NCBI GenBank assembly: GCA_021791445.1
Contig: JAJYWO010000008.1
Span: 1-34,220 of the forward strand
DNA from: a bacterium
GTDB taxonomy: Bacteria > Patescibacteriota > Minisyncoccia > UBA6257 > UBA9933
Length of the DNA stretch: 34,220 bases
Reading direction: 5' to 3'
Every line of letters starts with the position of its first letter. Position 1 is the first letter of the stretch. The notes under the pieces are model-generated. The model did not search any database. It saw only the letters and a list, made by a program, of their open reading frames with translations, and had not been told where the DNA came from. Shown piece by piece: positions 532 through 32,439 of the stretch. The translations under genes and the position numbers were made by a program.

Positions 532-2241
532 ATGTTGCAAATTCCATCTCAAAAACTGAAAGAAATTTTAATCAAGGACAATCTTGTTGATCCGGAAAAA
601 TTTGATTTTCTAGCGAACGAGGCGAAACGCATGGGCCAGGATATCGGGGATATTTTGATTTCGCGCAACATCATCACGACGGATTATTTTTACGGCGTTC
701 TGGCGGCTTATTTCAACGTTGAAATGGCCGATTTAATCGGCAAGAAAATAGACGAGCAAGTTCTTAATCTTCTTTCCGAGAATGTGGCCAAGCAGAAAAA
801 GGCGATTGTGTTCGGGAAAGAGCCGGACGGCGATTTAAGCGTCGCCATGGAAAATCCGAACGATTTGGGAATTATTGAATTTCTCAGGAATAATTTAAAA
901 TCCGAAATTAAGCCGTATCTCGCCACTCAAGACGACTTAAACAAAGGATTTGCGATGTACAGCCGCAAATTCGCCGAAGATTTCAGAAAACTGGTTGAAG
1001 AAAACATTCAGGCGTCATTGAGGCAGAAAGCCGGCACGGTTGAAGAAGCGGCTTCCGCGATTCCCATTGTCGCGCTTATTGATAATATCATTTTCTACGC
1101 GCTTTCATTGCGCGCTTCCGATATTCACGTGGAAATTCTTGAAGACGGAATTTTGATAAGGTTCAGAATTGACGGCGTTCTTCATGAAATTGTCAAGATT
1201 CCCAAAGAAGTCCATCCGGCGGTTGTCGCCAGGGTGAAATTAATCGCGGCGTTGAAAATAGACGAACACCACAAGCCGCAGGACGGCCGAACTCATTATA
1301 AAGTCGGTTCGGATTTGATTGACATCAGAATTTCCATTATCCCGACTTTTTATGGCGAGAAAATTGAAATGCGTCTTTTGCCGGCCGCCCAGAAACCGCT
1401 CGCTTTAAGGGAGGTCGGTTTGATGGATGATATGATTAAAATCATTGAAGAGAATATCAAGAAGACTTACGGGATGATTTTGGTGACCGGTCCGACCGGA
1501 AGCGGAAAAACCACGACGCTTTACGCCATTTTGAACATTTTGAATATGCCGGAGGTCAATATTATTACCATTGAGGATCCGATTGAATACAACATTAAAT
1601 ACATTAATCAGGTCCAAATAAATCCGCTGGCGGGCATCACTTTTGAAAGCGGATTGCGTTCCATTTTAAGGCAAGACCCGAACATTATCATGGTCGGCGA
1701 AATTCGCGACGAAGAAACCGCCGAAATCGCGGTGCATTCGGCTTTGACCGGGCATTTGGTTTTATCCAGCTTGCACACCAATGACGCGACAACGGCGATT
1801 CCGCGCTTGTTTGATATGAAAATTCCGCCGTTTTTGACGGCCGCGGTTTTGAATTTGATTGTCGCTCAAAGATTGGTGAGAAAAATTTGTCTGGATTGCA
1901 TTGGTTCATTCGCGCCTTCGGAAGATTTGTTAAATTCCATAAAAAAACAATTAAAAGAGTTGAATATTGATTCCGAATTCAGGGCGCCGAAAGTTTTATA
2001 CCAAGGCAAGGGATGCATAAGCTGCGGCAATACCGGCTATTCCGGCCGTTTAGGAATTTTTGAAATTCTGAATATTGACGAGGATTTGCGCAAGGAAATC
2101 ATCAATCCGAATTTTTCTCTTGATAATCTGGCGAAATTGGCGAAAGAAAAAGGGATGATTACAATGTTCCAAGACGGATTAAGAAAAGCGGAATTGGGAA
2201 TAACGACGATAGAAGAAGTATTGCGCGTAATTCGCGAATAA
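532..2241 (+). CDS. pilB: Type IV pilus assembly / type II secretion ATPase (PilB/GspE family)
   Basis: Walker [45 protein letters not shown]-terminal CxxC zinc region. Start placed at internal ATG 532 (ORF opens at 508). Confidence 0.93.
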
Positions 2242-11002: not shown

Positions 11003-11755
11003 TTATTTTGTATTTTGTATTATATTCTTGATTTCTTTCGGTTTCAAACTGGCTCCACCGACAAGGAAACCGCCTATTTCTTTATATTTTAAGAAATTTT
11101 TGATGTTTTTTCCATTTACAGAACCTCCATAAAGCGTTTTTACGCTTTCCACTTTATATTTACCACTTACTACTTTTTTAATAAAATTTATCATTTCAAC
11201 GGCGTCTTTAGGGGTGTCGGGGTGTTTTGAGCCGATCGCCCAAATTGGTTCATAGGCAATTATTAAATTTTCAATTTTCAATTTACAATTTTCAATGTTT
11301 TTTAGGTCTTTTTGCAGTTGCGATTTGATGAAATTTTCAACGGCTTTTTTGCCGCGTTTGCGGATAGTTAAATTTTCGCCAATACACAAAATCACTTTTA
11401 ATCCGGATTTAAGCGCCGCCAAAACTTTTTTGTTTATCATTCCATCGGTTTCGCCGAGAATTTGGCGACGTTCGGAGTGGCCGACAATCGCATATTTGAC
11501 TTTAAGATTTTTTTCCTGATGCCAGGATATTTCTCCGGTATACGGGCCGTTATTTTTCCAAAAAATATCCTGGCTGCCGAGTTTCGCTTTTTTAATCGCT
11601 TTTCCGACATCTTCTAAAAAAACAAACGGCGGCGCGATAACGACTTCCGAATATTTTTTTTGAGGAATGGCGTTTTCTACCGTTTTTGCCAATTTAATTG
11701 CCGCTTTGACAGTGACGGGATTGCTCTTCCAATTAAAAGCGATGATTTTTTTCAT
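11003..11755 (-). CDS. tpiA: Triosephosphate isomerase
   Basis: [44 protein letters not shown]. Start at 11755 rather than ORF-track 11944. Confidence 0.94.
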
Positions 11756-11777: not shown

Positions 11778-13586
11778 ATGAATAACAGCGACAATATCAG
11801 AAATTTCGTCATAATCGCCCATATAGACCATGGTAAATCTACGCTGGCAGATAGGATGTTGGAAATAACCGGTACGGTTGAAAAAAGAAAAATGAAGGAA
11901 CAGCTGCTGGACGCGATGGGATTAGAGCGCGAACGCGGCATCACAATTAAGATGGCGCCCGTCAGGATGTCCCATATTCTAAATTCTAAATCCTATATTC
12001 TTAATCTTATTGATACTCCCGGCCATGTGGATTTCGGTTATGAAGTATCGCGGTCTTTGGCAGCCGTGGAAGGCGCGGTTTTGCTTGTTGACGCGACCAA
12101 GGGAGTGCAGGCGCAGACGCTTTATAATTTTGAACAGGCGCAAGCGCAGAGGCTGAAAATAATTCCGGCGGTGAATAAAATAGATTTGCCGAACGCGATG
12201 GTGGAATAAACGAAACAAGAAATGGCGGAACTTATCGGTTGCGACAAAAGCGATATTTTTGAAATATCCGGAAAAACCGGAAAAGGTGTGCAGGAACTTC
12301 TGGAAGCCATAATTAAAATTGTTCCGCCGCCGGTTCCGTCAGAAAAGCAAATACTCCGAGCCCTTATTTTTGATTCCCAATACGACTCTTATAAAGGCGT
12401 TATCGCTTACGTTCGCGTTGTTGACGGCCAAATTAAAGCCGGAGATAAAATTTATATGTTCGCCGCTAAGGCGCAGGCGGATGTTTTGGAAACAGGATAT
12501 TTTAAGCCTGAACTCGTGAAGTCGGAAAGTTTGAATGCCGGAGAAATCGGTTATATTGCCACAGGCTTGAAAGATTTATCCAAAGTCCGCGTTGGAGATA
12601 CAATAACACAATTTTCAATTTTCAATTCACAATTTTCAATTAAACCGTTGACCGGATATAAAGAGCCGCAGCCGGTTGTTTTCGCTTCTTTTTATCCGCA
12701 GGACGCGGACGATTTTGAAGCGTTGCGCGACGCGCTTTCCAAATTAAAACTCAACGACTCTTCTTTGTTTTTTGAGCCGGAAAGTTCGGAAACAATGGGC
12801 CGCGGATTCCGCTGCGGATTTTTGGGAATGCTGCATATGGATATTGTCCGCGAGAGGCTGCTTCGCGAATACGACAGCGAGCCGCTGGCAACGATTCCTT
12901 CGGTTGTTTATAAAATTAAAACCAAAAGAGGGGAAGAAAAGATGATTTATCGGCCTTCGGAATTGCCGGATGGCGGGGAAGTCGCGGAAATTATGGAACC
13001 GTTTGCGACTGTGGAAATTATTTCCAATGCCGAGTATTCCGGCGCGATTATGAAATTATTGGAAAACGCTAGAGGAATTTATAAAAATCTTGAATACCTG
13101 AGCCCGAAAAAAATATTGCTGGCTTACGAGGCGCCTTTGGCTGAGATTATTGTTGATTTTTATGATAAACTTAAAAGTATAACGCAGGGATACGCTTCAC
13201 TCAGTTATGCTATTAAAGGTTTTTCCGCGGCAAATTTGGTCAAGCTTGATATTTTGGTTGCCGGCGAAAAAGTGGATGCCCTCGCGACCGTTGTTCCCAG
13301 AGATCAATCATATCAAAAAGGGAAATATATTGTGGAAAAGCTGAAAGAATTATTGCCGAGGCAATTATTTATGGTGACGTTGCAGGCGGCAATCGGTTCA
13401 AAAATAATCGCCCGGGAAAGCATTGCCGCTTTAAAAAAAGACGTGACCGGATATTTGTACGGCGGCGACAGGAGCAGAAAAATGAAGCTTTGGAAAAAAC
13501 AGAAGAGAGGCAAAGAAAGATTAAAAAGAGAAGGCCGCGTGGAAATCCCGCAGGAAGTATTTATGAATTTGTTTAAGAAGCAGTAG
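11778..13586 (+). pseudogene. lepA: Elongation factor 4 (LepA) with an in-frame TAA at 12207-12209
   Basis: [29 protein letters not shown]...[18 protein letters not shown]...[12 protein letters not shown] then same-frame TKQEMAELIGCDKSDIFEISGKTGKGVQELLE...FRCGFLGMLHMDIVRERL; both halves match LepA. Confidence 0.85.
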
Positions 13587-14892: not shown

Positions 14893-16038
14893 GTGAAATT
14901 TTTACGAAATTTAAATAAAAAAGAAATTGTCGGGAAAACTTGCCTTTTGCGAGTGGATTTGAATATAGCCGAAAAAGAAGCGAAAAATTCTCCGCGGATT
15001 TTGGGAATTTTAGCGACGATAGAATTTTTAACAAATAACGGCGCGAAAGTGGTGATTTTGTCGCATAGGGGAAGACCAAAGCCCGTAAAGCGGATAAATC
15101 CAAAATCCAAAATCCTAAATCCTAAAGAATTTTCATTAAAACCATTTGCGAAAATTTTATCAAAATTATTAAAAAAACCGGTTCATTTTATTGATTTCAG
15201 TAAAAATTGGAAAGAAATTCTTGCTACCATCAATGGTAGCAAGAATAATATTTTTCTTTTGGAAAATTTGCGGTTTTTGGCGGGGGAAGAAAAAAATGAT
15301 AGAAAATTGGCGAAGCAATTGGCGAGATTGGGTGATTTTTATGTGAATGACGCTTTTGCCGTCAGCCATCGTAACGCGGCTTCGGTTTCGGCGATTACGA
15401 AATTTTTGCCGAGCTACGCGGGATTGCTTTTAGAGAAAGAGATTAAAAACCTTTCCGTTGTTATGAAAAACCCGAAGCGTCCGTTTGTTGTTATTCTGGG
15501 CGGGGCGAAAATTTCCGATAAAATCGGTTTGATAAAAAAATTTTCCGCCGGCGAGCGGAGAGCGGATTATTTTTTGATTGGCGGCGGCATCGCCAATAAT
15601 TTCTTATTGGCGCAGAGTTTGCCGATAGGGGATTCTATTTTTGAAGAATCAACAGTTAATTTCGCCAAAAAAATGCTGAAAAACAAAAAAGTGATTTTGC
15701 CGGTTGATTACGCGATTGAAAACAGAAAAATTTTAGATATCGGCCCGAATACGATTAAAATGTATTCGGATATTATAAAAAAAGCCAAAACGATAATTTG
15801 GAACGGGCCCATGGGATATTTTGAAAATCCGAAATTCGCCAAAGGCTCGGGGGAAATTGCCAAAGCGATAATCAGCAATAAAAAAGCGTTTTCCGCGATC
15901 GGTGGAGGAGAAACAGCGTCCATAATTCATAATTCCAAATTCATAATTCATAATAATATATTCGTATCCACTGGCGGGGGCGCGATGCTAGAATATCTAG
16001 CGGGCAAAAAGCTGTCAGGGATAGAAGCGTTAAAATGA
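14893..16038 (+). CDS. pgk: Phosphoglycerate kinase
   Basis: LLRVDLNIAEKE, LSHRGRPK, FLLENLRFLAGEE, VNDAFAVSHRNAASV, GGGETASI, STGGGAMLEYLAGKKLSGIEAL; GTG start. Confidence 0.94.
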   Translation: MKFLRNLNKKEIVGKTCLLRVDLNIAEKEAKNSPRILGILATIEFLTNNGAKVVILSHRGRPKPVKRINPKSKILNPKEFSLKPFAKILSKLLKKPVHFIDFSKNWKEILATINGSKNNIFLLENLRFLAGEEKNDRKLAKQLARLGDFYVNDAFAVSHRNAASVSAITKFLPSYAGLLLEKEIKNLSVVMKNPKRPFVVILGGAKISDKIGLIKKFSAGERRADYFLIGGGIANNFLLAQSLPIGDSIFEESTVNFAKKMLKNKKVILPVDYAIENRKILDIGPNTIKMYSDIIKKAKTIIWNGPMGYFENPKFAKGSGEIAKAIISNKKAFSAIGGGETASIIHNSKFIIHNNIFVSTGGGAMLEYLAGKKLSGIEALK

Positions 16039-21128: not shown

Positions 21129-24100
21129 ATGACTGAAAAAGAAATCTTAAAATTTTGGCAGGAGAATAAAATTTTTGAGAAATCCGTAAAAAGGGAATCA
21201 CTAAAAGGTGATTACGTATTTTACGACGGTCCGCCTTTCGCCACCGGCACGCCGCATTACGGCCATATTGTCGCCAGCGCGATGAAAGACGCGGTGCCGC
21301 GCTATTGGACAATGAAAGGCTATCGCGTGGAACGAAAATGGGGCTGGGATTGCCATGGCCTGCCGATTGAAAATATCGCGGAAAAAGAACTCGGCATCAA
21401 AAGAAAAAAAGAAATTGAAGAAATGGGAATCGGCAAATTCAACGAGTTTTGCCGTTCAAAAATTTTCACTTATGTGGACGAATGGAAGAAAGTCATCGGC
21501 CGCTTGGGCAGATGGGCGGATATGGAAAACAGCTACAAAACAATGGATGTTTCTTTTATGGAGTCCGTTTGGTGGACATTCAAGCAGTTATGGGATAAGG
21601 GTTTGATTTATGAGGGATACCGCTCAATGCATATTTGCACGCGCTGCGAAACAACGCTTTCCCAGCAAGAGGTGAGCGAGGGATATAAGGATATAAAAGA
21701 TATTTCGGCAATAGCGAAATTTGAATTAATTGATGAACCGAATACTTTTGTTTTGGCGTGGACGACTACGCCTTGGACTTTAGTAGGTAATGTGGCGTTG
21801 GCGGTAGGAAAAGATGTTGGATATGCGAAATGGAAAAAAGACGGAGAAGTATTTATTTTAGCCGAAGAATTGGCTGCTAAATATTTTTCAGATTTTGACA
21901 CTACTGATTTTTTAAGATATGAAACTTTACCTGTAAATTATTTAATAGGAAAATCTTATAAGCCTCTTTTTGATTACTACTATAGCGATAAAAATTTAAA
22001 AAATCGCGAAAACGGGTGGAAAATTTATGCTGCCGATTTTGTGACCACCGAAGAAGGCACGGGCGTGGTGCATATCGCGCCGGCCTTCGGTGAAGACGAT
22101 TTGAATTTATGGCAAAAAGAAAATTTGCCGTTTATTCAGCATGTCGGCATGGACGGAATTATCAAGACGGAAGCGAAAGATTTCGCCGGAATGAGCGTAA
22201 AACCGGCCGACGACCATCAATCAACAGATGTGGAAATTATAAAATATTTAGCGAAGAATGGTTTACTTTTCGCCAAAGAAAAATATGAACACAGCTACCC
22301 GCATTGCTGGCGGTGCGACACACCGCTTATCAATTACGCGACTTCTTCGTGGTTCGTGAATATCTTGAAAATTAAAGAGCGCGCCATTGAATTGGCGAAA
22401 GATATAAATTGGTCGCCGTCACACATTAAAGAGGGGAGGTTCGGCAAATGGCTGGAAGGCGCGCGGGATTGGTCAATTTCCAGGCAGAGATATTGGGCGT
22501 CGGCGATGCCGATTTGGAAATGCGAAAAATGCAAAGAAGTAAAAGTGGTCGGTTCGATTGAGGATATTAAAAATAATGTCAAAAAATCCGGCAATAAGTA
22601 TTTTGTGATGCGTCACGGAGAAGCGGAGCAAAATGTTAAAAATATTCTTAATTCAAAATTAGAAATGAATCACTACCATCTTACCGAAAAAGGAAAAAAA
22701 CAAGTTTTAGCAGCGGCAGAAATTCTTCGGCAAACTCAGGATAAAATTGATTTTATTTTTTCTTCTGATTTATTGCGCGCAAAAGAGACCGCAGAAATAA
22801 TAAATGATGGTTTGGGGATAGGTAAGGATAAAATAATTTTTGATGAAAGAATAAGAGAAGTTAATTTTGGAATTTTTGACGGCAAAACAAGCCAAGAATA
22901 TCGTTCTTATTTTTCTTCCTATAAAGAAAGATTTGAAAAAAATCCGCCTAACGGAGAAAATTTCAGCCAATTAAAAAATAGAGTAAGTGAATTTTTATAC
23001 GATATTGATAAAAAATATTCAAATAAGAATATCTTAATTATAAGCCATGAAGCGTCTATTTGGTGTATGGCTGCTGGAGCGATTGGGGCAGATGTTGATG
23101 GGGCGCTGGAAATTACAAAAAGTAAAGAAGAACAATTTATTAAAACCGGCGAAATAATGGAGATTGATTTCGCGCCATTGCCGCATAATCAAAATTATGA
23201 GCTTGATTTGCATCGGCCATATATTGATGAGATTAAATTTCCTTGCGAATGTGGAGGCGAACATAAAAGAATCCCCGATGTTTTGGATACATGGTTTGAT
23301 TCCGGCTCAATGCCCTACGCGCAGAATCATTATCCGTTTGAAAACAAAGAAAAATTTGAAGCCAATTTTCCGGCGGAATTTATCGCCGAAGGCGTGGATC
23401 AGACGCGCGCGTGGTTTTATTATTTGCATTGCATTGCCACAGGGATTAAAGATTCGCGGGCATTCAATAATGCGATTGTTAATGGCATTGTTCTGGCGGA
23501 AGACGGCAAAAAAATGTCCAAGCGTTTACAGAACTATCCGGATCCGATGGAAGTGATAGAAAAATATGGCGCTGACGCTTTAAGATTATATCTTTTGGGT
23601 TCTCCCGTTGTGAGCGCGGAAAATTTGAATTTTTCGGAAAAAGGAGTGGACGAGGCGCATAAGAAAGTCGTGATGCGGGTGAAGAATGTGCTGGCGTTCT
23701 ATAAAATGTATTCTGACGAAAATCCAAAATCCGAAATCCTAAATCCTAAATCAATTAACATATTGGATAAATGGATTTCAATTCGTTTAAATCAGTTAAT
23801 CGGCGAGATTACGGAGGCGATGGACAATTATAAACTGAATGAAGCGGTGCGGCCGATTGGAGATTTTGTTGAAGATTTGTCCAATTGGTATGTACGCCGG
23901 TCGCGGGAAAGGTTTAAAACGGATGGAGAGGATAAGGAAAGCGCAACGGCGACTTTACGATTCGTTTTATTGGAATTTTCAAAAGCAATCGCGCCATTTA
24001 TGCCGTTTATTGCTGAAGAAGTTTATAAAGAATTAAAAGGAGAAAAAGAAAGTGTGCATCTTGAAGAATGGCCAGAGGTTAAGAAAATTACAGACGAAGA

Positions 24101-26589: not shown

Positions 26590-27981
26590 ATGTCAATAAT
26601 TTCAAATTTTAAAAAATTGGCGAAAAACGATTTAAGAAAAAAAGCGCTTCAAATTGCCGAGGCGGGATATGAGGCGATTGAAATAAAACGAGTAGTAAGC
26701 AGAAAGGTGAAAGTATCAAGGGAAAAAACGAAAGAAGAGTTTTTAATAATTAATACGCATAATAAAAAAGAAAAAATTGATTTAAATAATTATAAAAAGA
26801 TTTTTCTTGTCGGCATTGGCAAGGGGTCGGCGCTGGCGAGCGTGACTTTGGCGAAAATATTAGGAAAAAAATTGAACGGCGGAATCGCGCTGGATATTCA
26901 AAAACCAAAATTGAAAATTGAAAATTATAAATTGAAAATTTTAACAGGCACTCATCCTTTACCTTCTCAACAAAACGTCAACGCCACTCAAAAAATAATC
27001 AAATTGGCGAAGAGCTTGGGAAAAGACGATTTGCTTATAACTCTCATTTGCGGCGGCGGTTCTTCTTTAATGTGCGGTTCGGAAAAAGAATTAAAAGCGT
27101 CGCAAACGGTTTTTAAGGAATTAACTAAAGCCGGAGCGAATATTATGGAATTAAATACGGTCAGAAAACATTTGTCCGAAGTGAAGGGAGGAGGGTTGGC
27201 GAAATTGGCTTATCCGGCAACTGTGCTTTCTTTGGTCATTTCCGATGTTTGCGGCAATGATTTGTCTTTTGTTTCTTCCGGTCCGACTGTTTTTGATAAA
27301 ACCACAAAAAAAGACGCGGAGAAAATTTTAAAAAAATATTTTAATGTAAGGACGTCGGACGTCTCACGGACATCCGACGTCCCCAAATTAATTCGCGTTT
27401 TAACAGAGACGCCAAAAGATAAAAAATATTTCAAAAAAGTAAAAAATATTCTTTTTGTCTGCAATCAGGATGCGGTGATGGCGATGTTGGAAAAAGCTAT
27501 AAAATTAGGATTTTCCGCGAAAATTTATTCATTGGCGTTGGAGGGAGAGGCGATGAACGCTTTATTGCCGATAGTAAAAATGGTGAAGCAAAAACAAGCG
27601 ATTATTGCGGCCGGCGAAACAACGGTAAATTTAAAAAATCGGCCCAAGGGGAAGGGCGGGAGGAATACGGAAGCCGTTTTAGGCGCTGTAGCGCAAATAC
27701 AAAATTCAATCCGCCAGCCGGCGGACCAAATCCTAAATAATTTGGTTTTTATATCTTTTACCTCCGACGGTCGCGATAACACCGAGGCCGCGGGCGCGAT
27801 TGCCGATGAATTAACTTTGCGAAAAGCGAAAAAATTAAAGATGAGCCCGATTGAATTTTTAAAACAGAACAAATCATTCGCTTTCTTTGATAAAACCGGA
27901 GATTTGATTTATGCTAAAAAGAGATGTTTTAATGTGGCTGATTTGATGTTTGTTTTGAGTTTACTGAATGAGCAACATTGA
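26590..27981 (+). CDS. Glycerate kinase (GckA/MOFRL family)
   Basis: GIGKGSALASV, TGTHPLPSQQNVNAT, LICGGGSSLMCG, NTVRKHLSEVKGGGLA, SDVCGNDLSFVSSGPT, SDGRDNTEAAGAIAD. Confidence 0.9.
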   Translation: MSIISNFKKLAKNDLRKKALQIAEAGYEAIEIKRVVSRKVKVSREKTKEEFLIINTHNKKEKIDLNNYKKIFLVGIGKGSALASVTLAKILGKKLNGGIALDIQKPKLKIENYKLKILTGTHPLPSQQNVNATQKIIKLAKSLGKDDLLITLICGGGSSLMCGSEKELKASQTVFKELTKAGANIMELNTVRKHLSEVKGGGLAKLAYPATVLSLVISDVCGNDLSFVSSGPTVFDKTTKKDAEKILKKYFNVRTSDVSRTSDVPKLIRVLTETPKDKKYFKKVKNILFVCNQDAVMAMLEKAIKLGFSAKIYSLALEGEAMNALLPIVKMVKQKQAIIAAGETTVNLKNRPKGKGGRNTEAVLGAVAQIQNSIRQPADQILNNLVFISFTSDGRDNTEAAGAIADELTLRKAKKLKMSPIEFLKQNKSFAFFDKTGDLIYAKKRCFNVADLMFVLSLLNEQH

Positions 27982-28007
27982 TATTAATAATAATTGTATG
28001 TTATAAT
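27978..28007 (+). promoter_or_regulatory. Sigma70-type promoter upstream of GA-repeat ORF
   Basis: TTGATA (27978-27983), 18-nt spacer, TATAAT (28002-28007); first ATG at 28018. Confidence 0.55.
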
Positions 28008-28050
28008 TTATTAAATAATGATTAGCCGTTTAATTCTCAAAAACCACCCC

Positions 28051-28077
28051 GAGAGAGAGAGAGAGAGAGAGAGAGAG
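28051..28077 (+). repeat. (GA)13.5 dinucleotide microsatellite
   Basis: Uninterrupted GAGAGA... from 28051 to 28077. Confidence 0.98.
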
Positions 28078-28139
28078 TAAATCGGGTCGCGCGAATTTTT
28101 GAAAATAAAACTGTTCAAAAATCCATCGCTATTTTTTTA

Positions 28140-29366
28140 ATGGCAATTTTTTGTTTTATTTATATAACTCCACTAACAACCAATGCGGGAGCATTTGGCT
28201 GTATACTTTTAAGTGGCTTATCATCCTTCTTGCCAAAAATAGGATTTATCAATAAAGATAATAATTATTTTGGGGATAATAATAATAGCTGTGGATCGCT
28301 GAGCGGGCCAATGCCGGGTTATTTAACGAAAATCCCTCGCGACTTAAGAGGATCTATTTTTAAAAGAGAAGGAGCTTATGTAAGTTTAATAAAATCCCGC
28401 TTAATAAATTTTTCTCCAGCCAATCCAACGCTTCCTTTTAAAATAAAAATAGAAAAAATTTTAACTGTTGCAAATATTAATAATCAAGAAATTCAACCTT
28501 TTGATTATTCATCAAATATAAAAGAAGTTAATAATATTTTTGAAATTATTGATAGTGTCGGTGGTTCATATACCACTAAAAGCAAAGATTGCAACTGGTA
28601 TGGTGCATGTAAAATAACTTATACAACGACTTATATAAATTATATTTTAACCGCTTACGGCAGGATTTATAGAGGCATAGGAAACCAAAGTACGACTATA
28701 AGAGAAGGAGCTTTTGGAGGAGCTTTTGGGGGGGACGCTAATTATGGGACAAACAGTAGTGGATTAAGTTGGTCATTAGTTTATGAACCGCAGTATCCGT
28801 CGGTTGATTTAAAAATTAATGGAGTTGATGGCGACATTTTGTCAATGACGGTGCCCGACACAGATGTTGTTTTAAGTTGGACGTCGGCAGAAGTTTCTGA
28901 TTGTAAAGCATCTGGCGATTGGAATGGAGATAAGTCAATTTCTGGCAAAGAAGAATTGGGCAAATTATTCCGCGGCAAAGAAAACCCCGGCCAAGGGAGA
29001 ACCTATAATTTTATTATTAGTTGTCGCACAAATGAAGGAGAAGAAGTTTCTGATAGAGTTTCGGCAAATATTTTTCAGTATCCATCATGTTCTTTTTGGG
29101 CCGACCCAGAAAAAATTATTTTGCCTCAAATTTCAACTTTAAAATGGTTTTGCGAATATACTGATTCGGCGAATATTGCCCCCGAAATCGGAAACGTTAA
29201 TTCTGGCGACGGATCTGTCGATGTTAGACCAAGCGAAAACACAGTTTTTCTCCTTAACGCTTTTGGATTGGACGGTTCTACAATTTATCGCGTCGCAGTA
29301 GAGATTGGAATGCCGAAATCATCATCACCTTTAAAATATAGAATAAAAGAGGTGACTCCTCGATAA
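28140..29366 (+). CDS. Secreted/surface hypothetical protein (possible phase-variable product)
   Basis: N-terminal hydrophobic MAIFCFIYITPLTTNAGA; open frame continues 5' to 28026 through the GA tract (...RVARIFENKTVQKSIAIFL) with no in-frame ATG/GTG/TTG. Confidence 0.7.
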   Translation: MAIFCFIYITPLTTNAGAFGCILLSGLSSFLPKIGFINKDNNYFGDNNNSCGSLSGPMPGYLTKIPRDLRGSIFKREGAYVSLIKSRLINFSPANPTLPFKIKIEKILTVANINNQEIQPFDYSSNIKEVNNIFEIIDSVGGSYTTKSKDCNWYGACKITYTTTYINYILTAYGRIYRGIGNQSTTIREGAFGGAFGGDANYGTNSSGLSWSLVYEPQYPSVDLKINGVDGDILSMTVPDTDVVLSWTSAEVSDCKASGDWNGDKSISGKEELGKLFRGKENPGQGRTYNFIISCRTNEGEEVSDRVSANIFQYPSCSFWADPEKIILPQISTLKWFCEYTDSANIAPEIGNVNSGDGSVDVRPSENTVFLLNAFGLDGSTIYRVAVEIGMPKSSSPLKYRIKEVTPR

Positions 29367-29967: not shown

Positions 29968-32439
29968 ATGAATAAATTTATTAAAAAATTAAGCGAGGTT
30001 GGGATAAAAGATGTTAGCGAAGTGGGCGGGAAAAACGCGTCGTTGGGCGAGATGATTAAAAATTTGACGCCGAAAGGCGTAAAAATTCCGGGCGGGTTTG
30101 TGGTGACGGCGGAAGCTTATCGGTATTTTTTAGAGAAAACAAAATTAAAACAGTTTATAAAACAAACACTTACGGGATTAAACACGAAAAATCTTAAAGA
30201 TTTAGCAAGGCGGGGAAAATTAATTCGCGAGACCATCAAAAAAACCGAATTTCCGGAAGATTTAAAAGAGGCGATTGCGAAAGCTTACGCGGAAATGGAA
30301 AAAGAATACGGAAAAAATGTTGACACAGCTGTTCGTTCAAGCGCCACTGCCGAAGATTTGCCGGGCGCGTCTTTTGCCGGCGAACACGAAACTTATTTGA
30401 ATATCAGGGGCGCGGAAGAAATTTTAAAATCAACGCGCGCGGCGATGGCTTCATTATTTACCGATCGCGCCATTTCTTATCGTGTTGACAAGAAATTCGA
30501 CCATTTCAAGGTGGCGCTTTCGGTTGGCGTTCAAAAAATGGTGCGTTCGGATAAGGGCTGTTCTGGCGTGATGTTTACTTTGGATACGGAATCGGGCTTT
30601 AAAGATTTAGTTTTAATCAACGGTTCTTGGGGCTTGGGTGAAATGATTGTGCAGGGCGAAGTGACGCCGGACGAATTTTTAGTATTTAAGCCGAAATTGG
30701 GTTTGGCGGAAAATCCGATAATTTCCAAAAAACTCGGCGTCAAGAATCAAAAAATGATTTATTCGGAAGGCAACGGCGTTTCCATAAAAAACACAAAAAT
30801 TATCAATACTTCGCAAAAAGAAAAAGAATCTTTTGTTTTAAGCGATAATGAAATTTTACAATTGGCGAAATGGGGGGTTTTGATTGAAGAGCATTATTCA
30901 AATAAATATAAAAAATGGACGCCGATGGATATGGAATGGGCGAAAGACGGCGGAACCGGCGAATTGTTTATTGTTCAGGCGCGGCCGGAGACGATTCATG
31001 CTTTGCGCGATTTTTCAAAAATCCGCGAGTATGTTTTAACTGATCTGAAAGCTAAAAGCTCAAAGCTAAAAGCTATTGTGAGGGGTGCTTCAGTGGGAAG
31101 TAAAATCGCGACTGGCAAGGCGCGGGTGATTTTAGACGCGAAAAATGTAGGGCAATTCAAGGCCGGCGAGGTTTTGATTACCGATATGACGGACCCCGAT
31201 TGGGAGCCGATTATGAAAATCGCTTCCGCGATAATCACTGACAAGGGCGGACGGACTTCGCACGCCGCGATTGTGTCTCGCGAACTTGGCATCCCGTGCA
31301 TTGTGGGTTCGGAAAACGCCACTAAAAAAATAAAAACAGGACAAATGATTACGGTTGATACCACCGGCGCCGAGGGTTTTGTTTATGATGGCGCGCTGAA
31401 ATTTAAAATTATCGAGCATGATGTCAAAAAAATGCCTAAGCCCAAGACGAAAATAATGATGAATATCGCCACTCCAGAAACCGCTTTTGAAAAATCATTT
31501 TTGCCGAACGATGGCGTAGGACTGGCAAGAGAGGAATTTATTATTGCGGGCGATATCGGAATTCATCCGATGGCGCTGATAAATTATGAAAAAATCAAAA
31601 ATGACGCAAGGCGTTATCCTGAGCGGAGCGAAGGATCTTTTAAGAAAATAATAAATGAAATTGATAAAAAAACCGTTGGTTATCCTGATAAAATTCAATT
31701 TTATGTTGATAAACTGGCTTACGGCATCGCGAAAATCGGAGCCGCGTTTTATCCCAAACCGGTGATTTTGAGATTTTCCGATTTCAAAACCAATGAATAC
31801 CGGACGCTTATCGGCGGCGAATTATACGAACCACAGGAAGAAAATCCGATGATTGGTTGGCGCGGGGCTTCAAGGTATTATCATCCGAGTTTCAAAGACG
31901 CGTTTATTTTGGAATTAAAAGCCATTAAAAAAGTCCGCGAAGAAATGGGCTTGGACAATGTGGAAGTGATGGTGCCGTTTTGCCGCACTCCTCAAGAGGG
32001 CCGGAAAGTCGTGGAAATAATATTAAAAAACAATCTAAAACCTAAAACCCAAAACCTAAAACCTCTTAAAATTTTTGTCATGTGCGAGATTCCGTCCAAT
32101 GTCGTTTTGGCGGATGAATTTCTTGATGTTTTTGATGGAATGAGCATTGGCTCCAATGATTTGACGCAGCTTACGGTAGGCATTGACCGCGACGGCAATG
32201 AAATGATTCGCGGCATCACCAATGAAAACGACGGCTCGGTGAAAAAACTTATTTCCGAAGCCATTAAAAAATGCAAAGCCCGTAAAAAATACATTGGTAT
32301 CTGCGGCCAGGCGCCGTCGGATATAGAAGGTTTTGCCGAATTTCTGGTGGAGCAGGGCATTGAAAGCATGTCGTTAAATCCGGACACTGTCATCAAAACT
32401 ACGCAAAGGGTTTATCAAAAGGAGAGAAATAAAAAGTGA
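29968..32439 (+). CDS. ppsA: Phosphoenolpyruvate synthase
   Basis: VGGKNASLGEMI, VRSSATAEDLPGASFAGEHETYLN, TDKGGRTSHAAIVSRELGIPCIVG, FCRTPQEGRKV, SIGSNDLTQLTVGIDRD. Confidence 0.95.
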   Translation: MNKFIKKLSEVGIKDVSEVGGKNASLGEMIKNLTPKGVKIPGGFVVTAEAYRYFLEKTKLKQFIKQTLTGLNTKNLKDLARRGKLIRETIKKTEFPEDLKEAIAKAYAEMEKEYGKNVDTAVRSSATAEDLPGASFAGEHETYLNIRGAEEILKSTRAAMASLFTDRAISYRVDKKFDHFKVALSVGVQKMVRSDKGCSGVMFTLDTESGFKDLVLINGSWGLGEMIVQGEVTPDEFLVFKPKLGLAENPIISKKLGVKNQKMIYSEGNGVSIKNTKIINTSQKEKESFVLSDNEILQLAKWGVLIEEHYSNKYKKWTPMDMEWAKDGGTGELFIVQARPETIHALRDFSKIREYVLTDLKAKSSKLKAIVRGASVGSKIATGKARVILDAKNVGQFKAGEVLITDMTDPDWEPIMKIASAIITDKGGRTSHAAIVSRELGIPCIVGSENATKKIKTGQMITVDTTGAEGFVYDGALKFKIIEHDVKKMPKPKTKIMMNIATPETAFEKSFLPNDGVGLAREEFIIAGDIGIHPMALINYEKIKNDARRYPERSEGSFKKIINEIDKKTVGYPDKIQFYVDKLAYGIAKIGAAFYPKPVILRFSDFKTNEYRTLIGGELYEPQEENPMIGWRGASRYYHPSFKDAFILELKAIKKVREEMGLDNVEVMVPFCRTPQEGRKVVEIILKNNLKPKTQNLKPLKIFVMCEIPSNVVLADEFLDVFDGMSIGSNDLTQLTVGIDRDGNEMIRGITNENDGSVKKLISEAIKKCKARKKYIGICGQAPSDIEGFAEFLVEQGIESMSLNPDTVIKTTQRVYQKERNKK

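Follow-up and report, generated by a model that had tools for sequence, protein, structure and literature searches.

The window, a stretch of 34,220 nucleotides, contains a gene for a predicted secreted protein whose reading frame is cut off from a promoter-proximal start codon by a GA microsatellite (Table 1). This layout had been proposed in a sequence-only reading of the same DNA, and its elements were found as described there: the promoter lies ahead of ATG 28018, TAA 28078 follows the (GA)13.5 tract exactly, base for base, and the 408-amino-acid ORF is open through the tract in another frame, with no upstream start. The frame of ATG 28140 is open upstream to 28026, tract included (446 codons), has no ATG, GTG, or TTG between the tract and 28140, and stays intact for 428 codons past the tract. 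The length of 13.5 units was read from a single metagenome-type assembly and may be wrong by a unit.

Table 1. Features of the GA-tract locus in the window
Feature	Position	Strand	Remarks
Sigma-70-type promoter: TTGATA (27978-27983), 18-nt spacer, TATAAT (28002-28007)	27978..28007	+	Agrees with the consensus at 11 of 12 positions; called on this match alone
Start codon (28018-28020) and 11-codon leader MISRLILKNHP	28018..28050	+	Only start that reaches the secreted frame through the tract
(GA)13.5 microsatellite, 27 nt, read ERERERERE	28051..28077	+	100% pure; proposed slippage switch
TAA directly 3' of the tract	28078..28080	+	Terminates the leader at the assembled (putative OFF) length
TGA closing the second putative OFF frame	28100..28102	+	7 codons past the tract
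Signal-peptide coding region RVARIFENKTVQKSIAIFLMAIFCFIYITPLTTNAGA	28083..28193	+	No start codon 5' of the hydrophobic core; hydropathy 2.7 over 15 residues
ORF of the secreted protein, 408 aa when started at ATG 28140	28140..29366	+	Stop at 29364-29366; ATG 28018 would serve as the in-frame start
Conserved C-terminal region, residues 220-395	28797..29324	+	Common to three paralogs and to relatives' proteins of the secreted type; Pfam and PDB gave no match

The -10 box is preceded by a TG dinucleotide and ends (28007) 10 nt ahead of ATG 28018, so that a leaderless or almost leaderless message would be expected. ATG 28018 lacks a Shine-Dalgarno sequence, as does ATG 28140, for which this had been pointed out before. 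RNA folding across the tract was no better than in shuffled sequences (z = 0.64) and gave no sign of a hairpin. The sequence GAGAGAGAGAGA is expected 0.00 times according to 100 dinucleotide-preserving shuffles of the window, and the tract is the sole GA tract of at least 7.5 units in its genome (480,895-bp assembly). No second copy of the leader was found in the window genome by DNA search. Kinship of the leader with that of a pilin gene in genome G003 (both are 33 nt long, with HP before the tract) was considered and rejected, since a family-wide DNA search gave chance-level matches.

Start of the secreted protein

Three paralogs in the window genome, all without a tract, are 43 to 48% identical to the window protein over residues 220 to 392. 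They open with MKFFNNKFFISFLIL, an ordinary signal peptide right from the start codon. The window gene has IFENKTVQKSIAIFLMAIFCFIYITPLTTNAGA where the paralogs start; its IFENK aligns with MKFFNNK, the start of all three, and an isoleucine lies near the start position in the alignment. Thus, the paralogs' start codon falls at IFENK, and the leader and tract stand in for the ordinary start. This bears out the earlier proposal that the upstream part of the ORF is the natural beginning of a signal peptide without a start codon. Tract-less homologs starting at the equivalent of ATG 28140, which by that reading would have refuted the proposal, were not found among the three paralogs.

ATG 28140 encodes the M of IFLMAIF, within the hydrophobic core. 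It was rejected as the start on the paralog alignment, and fallback translation from this codon, which the sequence-only reading had allowed for, is unlikely. Constitutive expression from ATG 28140, or from a transcript starting below the tract, would make the leader and tract an untranslated or passive upstream peptide. This is improbable: although no start codon past the tract comes earlier than ATG 28140, a protein begun there, inside the hydrophobic core and without a Shine-Dalgarno sequence, would lose IFENKTVQKSIAIFL, the counterpart of the paralogs' start. Two related pilins (L071 and L320) do have a good start between the tract and the prepilin motif.

The 180 C-terminal residues of the 408-amino-acid protein are common to secreted-type proteins of relatives. 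The protein gave no Pfam domain and, by profile search, no PDB match, and AlphaFold2 on its single sequence returned a mean pLDDT of 33, too low for the model to be of any use. No close relatives were found in the genome-contig collection searched.

Proposed frame switch

We propose, with a probability of about 0.8, that translation at the window locus is subject to phase variation (a contingency locus) and that the assembled length is the OFF state. As in contingency loci, the repeat is pure and long enough to be prone to slippage, with a short unit whose length is not a multiple of 3, and lies between a start codon and the remaining coding sequence, with 12.5 or 15.5 units restoring the frame. 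Termination is early in both other frames, 0 and 7 codons past the tract, and the gene belongs to the classes in which phase variation is typical (surface, adhesion, restriction-modification), with a signal peptide here and prepilins among the related tract loci.

Slipped-strand mispairing during replication would add or remove GA units. The frame arithmetic of the sequence-only reading was right: the loss of one unit or the gain of two unites ATG 28018 with the secreted frame, and 9.5 units would likewise do so. The ON product would be MISRLILKNHP-(ER)n-VNRVARIFENK..., whose signal peptide would have a long, charged n-region; at OFF lengths, translation would end at one of the two early stops. 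Cells of a clonal population would then differ, ON or OFF, in a single surface or secreted protein, which plausibly serves in host-cell contact.

Recurrence of GA tracts across the order

GA tracts of at least 7.5 units were found in 17 genomes when 61 relatives were searched. Within the order, tracts of this length occurred with a final G in 35 of 244 genomes and with a final A in 12 of 243 (41 genomes for both endings together), and CA tracts of the same length in 1 of 243. At 19 loci, an ATG is followed by 5 to 14 codons, (GA)n, and then a signal peptide, a membrane segment, or a prepilin (GFTLIEL). These loci belong to genomes G000, G003, G005, G009, G012, G014 (two), G022, G046 (three), G050, G095, G096, G130, G136, G137, and G194 (two). 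The architecture of the window locus is therefore present in at least 15 genomes, with in-frame and out-of-frame lengths mixed. The tract gene of G003 encodes a prepilin with a Laminin_G_3 domain. The three loci of G046 are paralogs with tracts of 27, 47, and 56 nt, and G012, a member of another family, has a similar gene with a tract at the corresponding place. Most ATGs in the 19-locus set have a TATAAT-like box 6 to 15 nt upstream (combined p = 1e-6 relative to shuffles of the upstream sequence).

At L071, L320, L072, and L025, a start codon is also present between the tract and the membrane segment, from which translation could proceed without reading the tract. Such a start is missing from most related loci, which argues against constitutive expression of the window gene. 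Around some GA tracts of the order, for example, L047, L049, L073, and L079, no gene was evident. In the order, C immediately precedes 34 of 43 GA tracts, and G precedes none. At L045 (G071:C5, approximately 1497 to 1515, minus strand), a GA tract with a TAA lies within a putative FkbM-type methyltransferase, recognized by eye only (VDIGANVGYYTVLL). FkbM-type methyltransferases are a class that is often phase-variable elsewhere.

Frames and stop codons at the tracts

The upstream ATG was in frame at 7 and out of frame at 12 of the 19 loci, a count that depends on the ATG taken, with the choice open at four loci. The in-frame share comes close to one third, the value that random, freely changing lengths would give, and the ORFs beyond the tracts stay intact, being open for up to 499 codons. 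Among tracts ending in G, a stop was the very next codon in 22 of 43 cases, compared with a background of 4.2% (binomial p = 2e-19). This excess of stops directly after the tracts suggests selection for a clean OFF state, and a passive tract upstream of a constitutively expressed gene would not predict it.

That the true window tract has another length, misassembled here, and that the gene is always in frame is very unlikely. The out-of-frame loci are too numerous for random errors, and 27 nt is well inside one short read. Dinucleotide tracts are indeed prone to sequencing and assembly error, and contigs of G005, G100, and G136 end at the tract, but real length heterogeneity would likewise break contigs at such places.

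Length change at related loci

A change in length was evident between G095 and G096, which are sister species of the same genus. Their pilin orthologs have tracts of 30 and 19 nt, respectively, between upstream DNA that is 92% identical and approximately 400 bp of nearly identical downstream DNA. The net difference is 12 nt, equal to six GA units, so that both pilins stay in frame. A shift of six units with the frame kept is difficult to reconcile with the tract being an old accident and the gene a pseudogene frozen out of frame. The out-of-frame assembled length of the window tract would fit such decay; however, the ORF past the tract is intact, and the same arrangement recurs in the order at in-frame and out-of-frame lengths alike, which makes a pseudogene highly improbable. 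The contingency locus of the sequence-only reading is thus supported by the paralogs, by the recurrence in both frame states, by the stop excess and the scarcity of CA tracts, and by the difference in pilin tract length between sister species.

In G136, approximately 150 bp comprising promoter, leader, and tract are nearly identical at two places (L324 and L331) with unrelated upstream genes. The two copies have tracts of 42 and 40 nt, and the contig ends two bases past the 42-nt tract. This duplication indicates that the promoter-leader-tract switch may move and spread as a unit.

Reverse transcriptases of diversity-generating retroelements

In the genomes of relatives, GA tracts also interrupt reverse transcriptase (RT) genes at three places. 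The tract-bearing RTs are of the diversity-generating retroelement type (RVT_1, motif IGNLTSQ), and most of them are out of frame as assembled. A template/variable repeat pair was detected in 14 of the 18 RT regions scanned, with 12 to 28 mismatches, 80 to 100% of which were at A of one copy. GA-interrupted RTs with a repeat pair nearby and mismatches at A were noted at L261 (G020), L262 (G021), L263 (G060), L264 (G013), and L265 (G065), and such pairs were also seen with the GA-interrupted RTs at L170, L176, L193, L199, L200, L210, L222, L247, and L249. From these sequences, retroelement hypermutation may itself be phase-variable. If this is true, switchable diversity-generating retroelements would form a second layer, in which hypermutation can be heritably turned off.

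Among 28 retroelement RT homologs of the order with a located NLL motif (L269-L298), 25 have a run of 7 to 14 G or a GA tract 39 to 79 nt upstream of this conserved motif, at a similar position close to or ahead of the RT start. Many RTs with a G run have an ATG downstream of it; thus, the run may affect transcription, initiation, or the template RNA instead of the frame. RT relatives in viral contigs were only 27 to 46% identical and were uninformative on tract length. No such RT was found in the window genome.

We see an even chance that many Patescibacteria keep a few GA-tract switches, as promoter-leader-(GA)n units ahead of host-facing pilins and secreted proteins and as tracts within or ahead of retroelement RTs, and that slippage sets both the displayed surface protein and whether hypermutation runs. 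Patescibacteria are, for the most part, contact-dependent epibionts; their genomes are very small, and few of their regulators are known. Were their pilins and secreted proteins switched by GA slippage, a clonal population would be heterogeneous in its encounters with hosts and phages. Standard annotation shows such genes as truncated or with a wrong internal start, which makes this class easy to miss.

Comparison with known systems

As reported previously, the type III methyltransferase gene mmyCImod of Mycoplasma mycoides is OFF with (AG)12 followed by TAA and ON with (AG)10, and TAA stops after the repeat are conserved in several mycoplasmas (PMC3498834). The GA unit and the placement of the stop are the same as at the window locus. 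However, the mycoplasma tract lies in a cytoplasmic DNA methyltransferase, whereas the window tract precedes the signal peptide of a secreted protein, and the two proteins are unrelated. A methyltransferase domain of the type III mod class is absent from the window protein, a signal-peptide protein with no Pfam match.

The surface-protein gene oipA of Helicobacter pylori has a dinucleotide repeat where its signal peptide is encoded, and slipped-strand mispairing there turns expression ON and OFF (PMC10564699). In oipA, the coding strand carries CT inside the signal peptide of an outer membrane protein; in the window, it carries GA before the signal peptide. Unlike H. pylori, the lineage of the window organism has no classical outer membrane.

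Among CPR bacteria, a Gracilibacterium (BD1-5) has a hypervariable gene in which repeats drive the variation of a predicted surface protein (PMC6851277). That repeat differs from the tract described here, as its 9-nt units encode a PTD peptide and vary synonymously, with no frame switching (PMC6851277). Type IV pili matter in the host contact of Saccharibacteria (PMC12206443), which makes switching of pilins and secreted proteins biologically plausible here. In the open-access literature, we found no description of phase variation by simple sequence repeats in Patescibacteria or CPR bacteria, nor of tracts in retroelement RTs, and PMC8144416 does not mention phase variation or frameshifts. The mechanism is thus already known from Mycoplasma and Helicobacter and seems undescribed in Patescibacteria.

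GA tracts beyond the order

When approximately 85,000 species genomes were scanned for (GA)9.5 followed by TAAA, at least 116 stretches were obtained. Among the matches listed, approximately 30 came from records named as Patescibacteria or CPR lineages, including Nomura-, Kaiser-, Yanofsky-, Magasanik-, Falkow-, Doudna-, Berkel-, Beckwith-, and Woesebacteria. The remaining matches listed were largely from Helicobacter, Campylobacter, mycoplasmas, Bacteroidales, and similar groups. In the CPR matches listed, the long ORF past the tract often encoded a large secreted protein, a prepilin, or an RT.

Other repeats in the window

Imperfect period-7 arrays are strongly overrepresented in the window, with 13 runs of nine or more matches at lag 7 compared with 0.2 in shuffles. 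Such arrays lie at 2298-2328, 11257-11296, 12609-12641, 15096-15126, 15921-15954, 23719-23752, 26907-26940, 31048-31075, and 32035-32064, several of them within conserved genes, such as isoleucyl-tRNA synthetase-like and PPDK-like ORFs.
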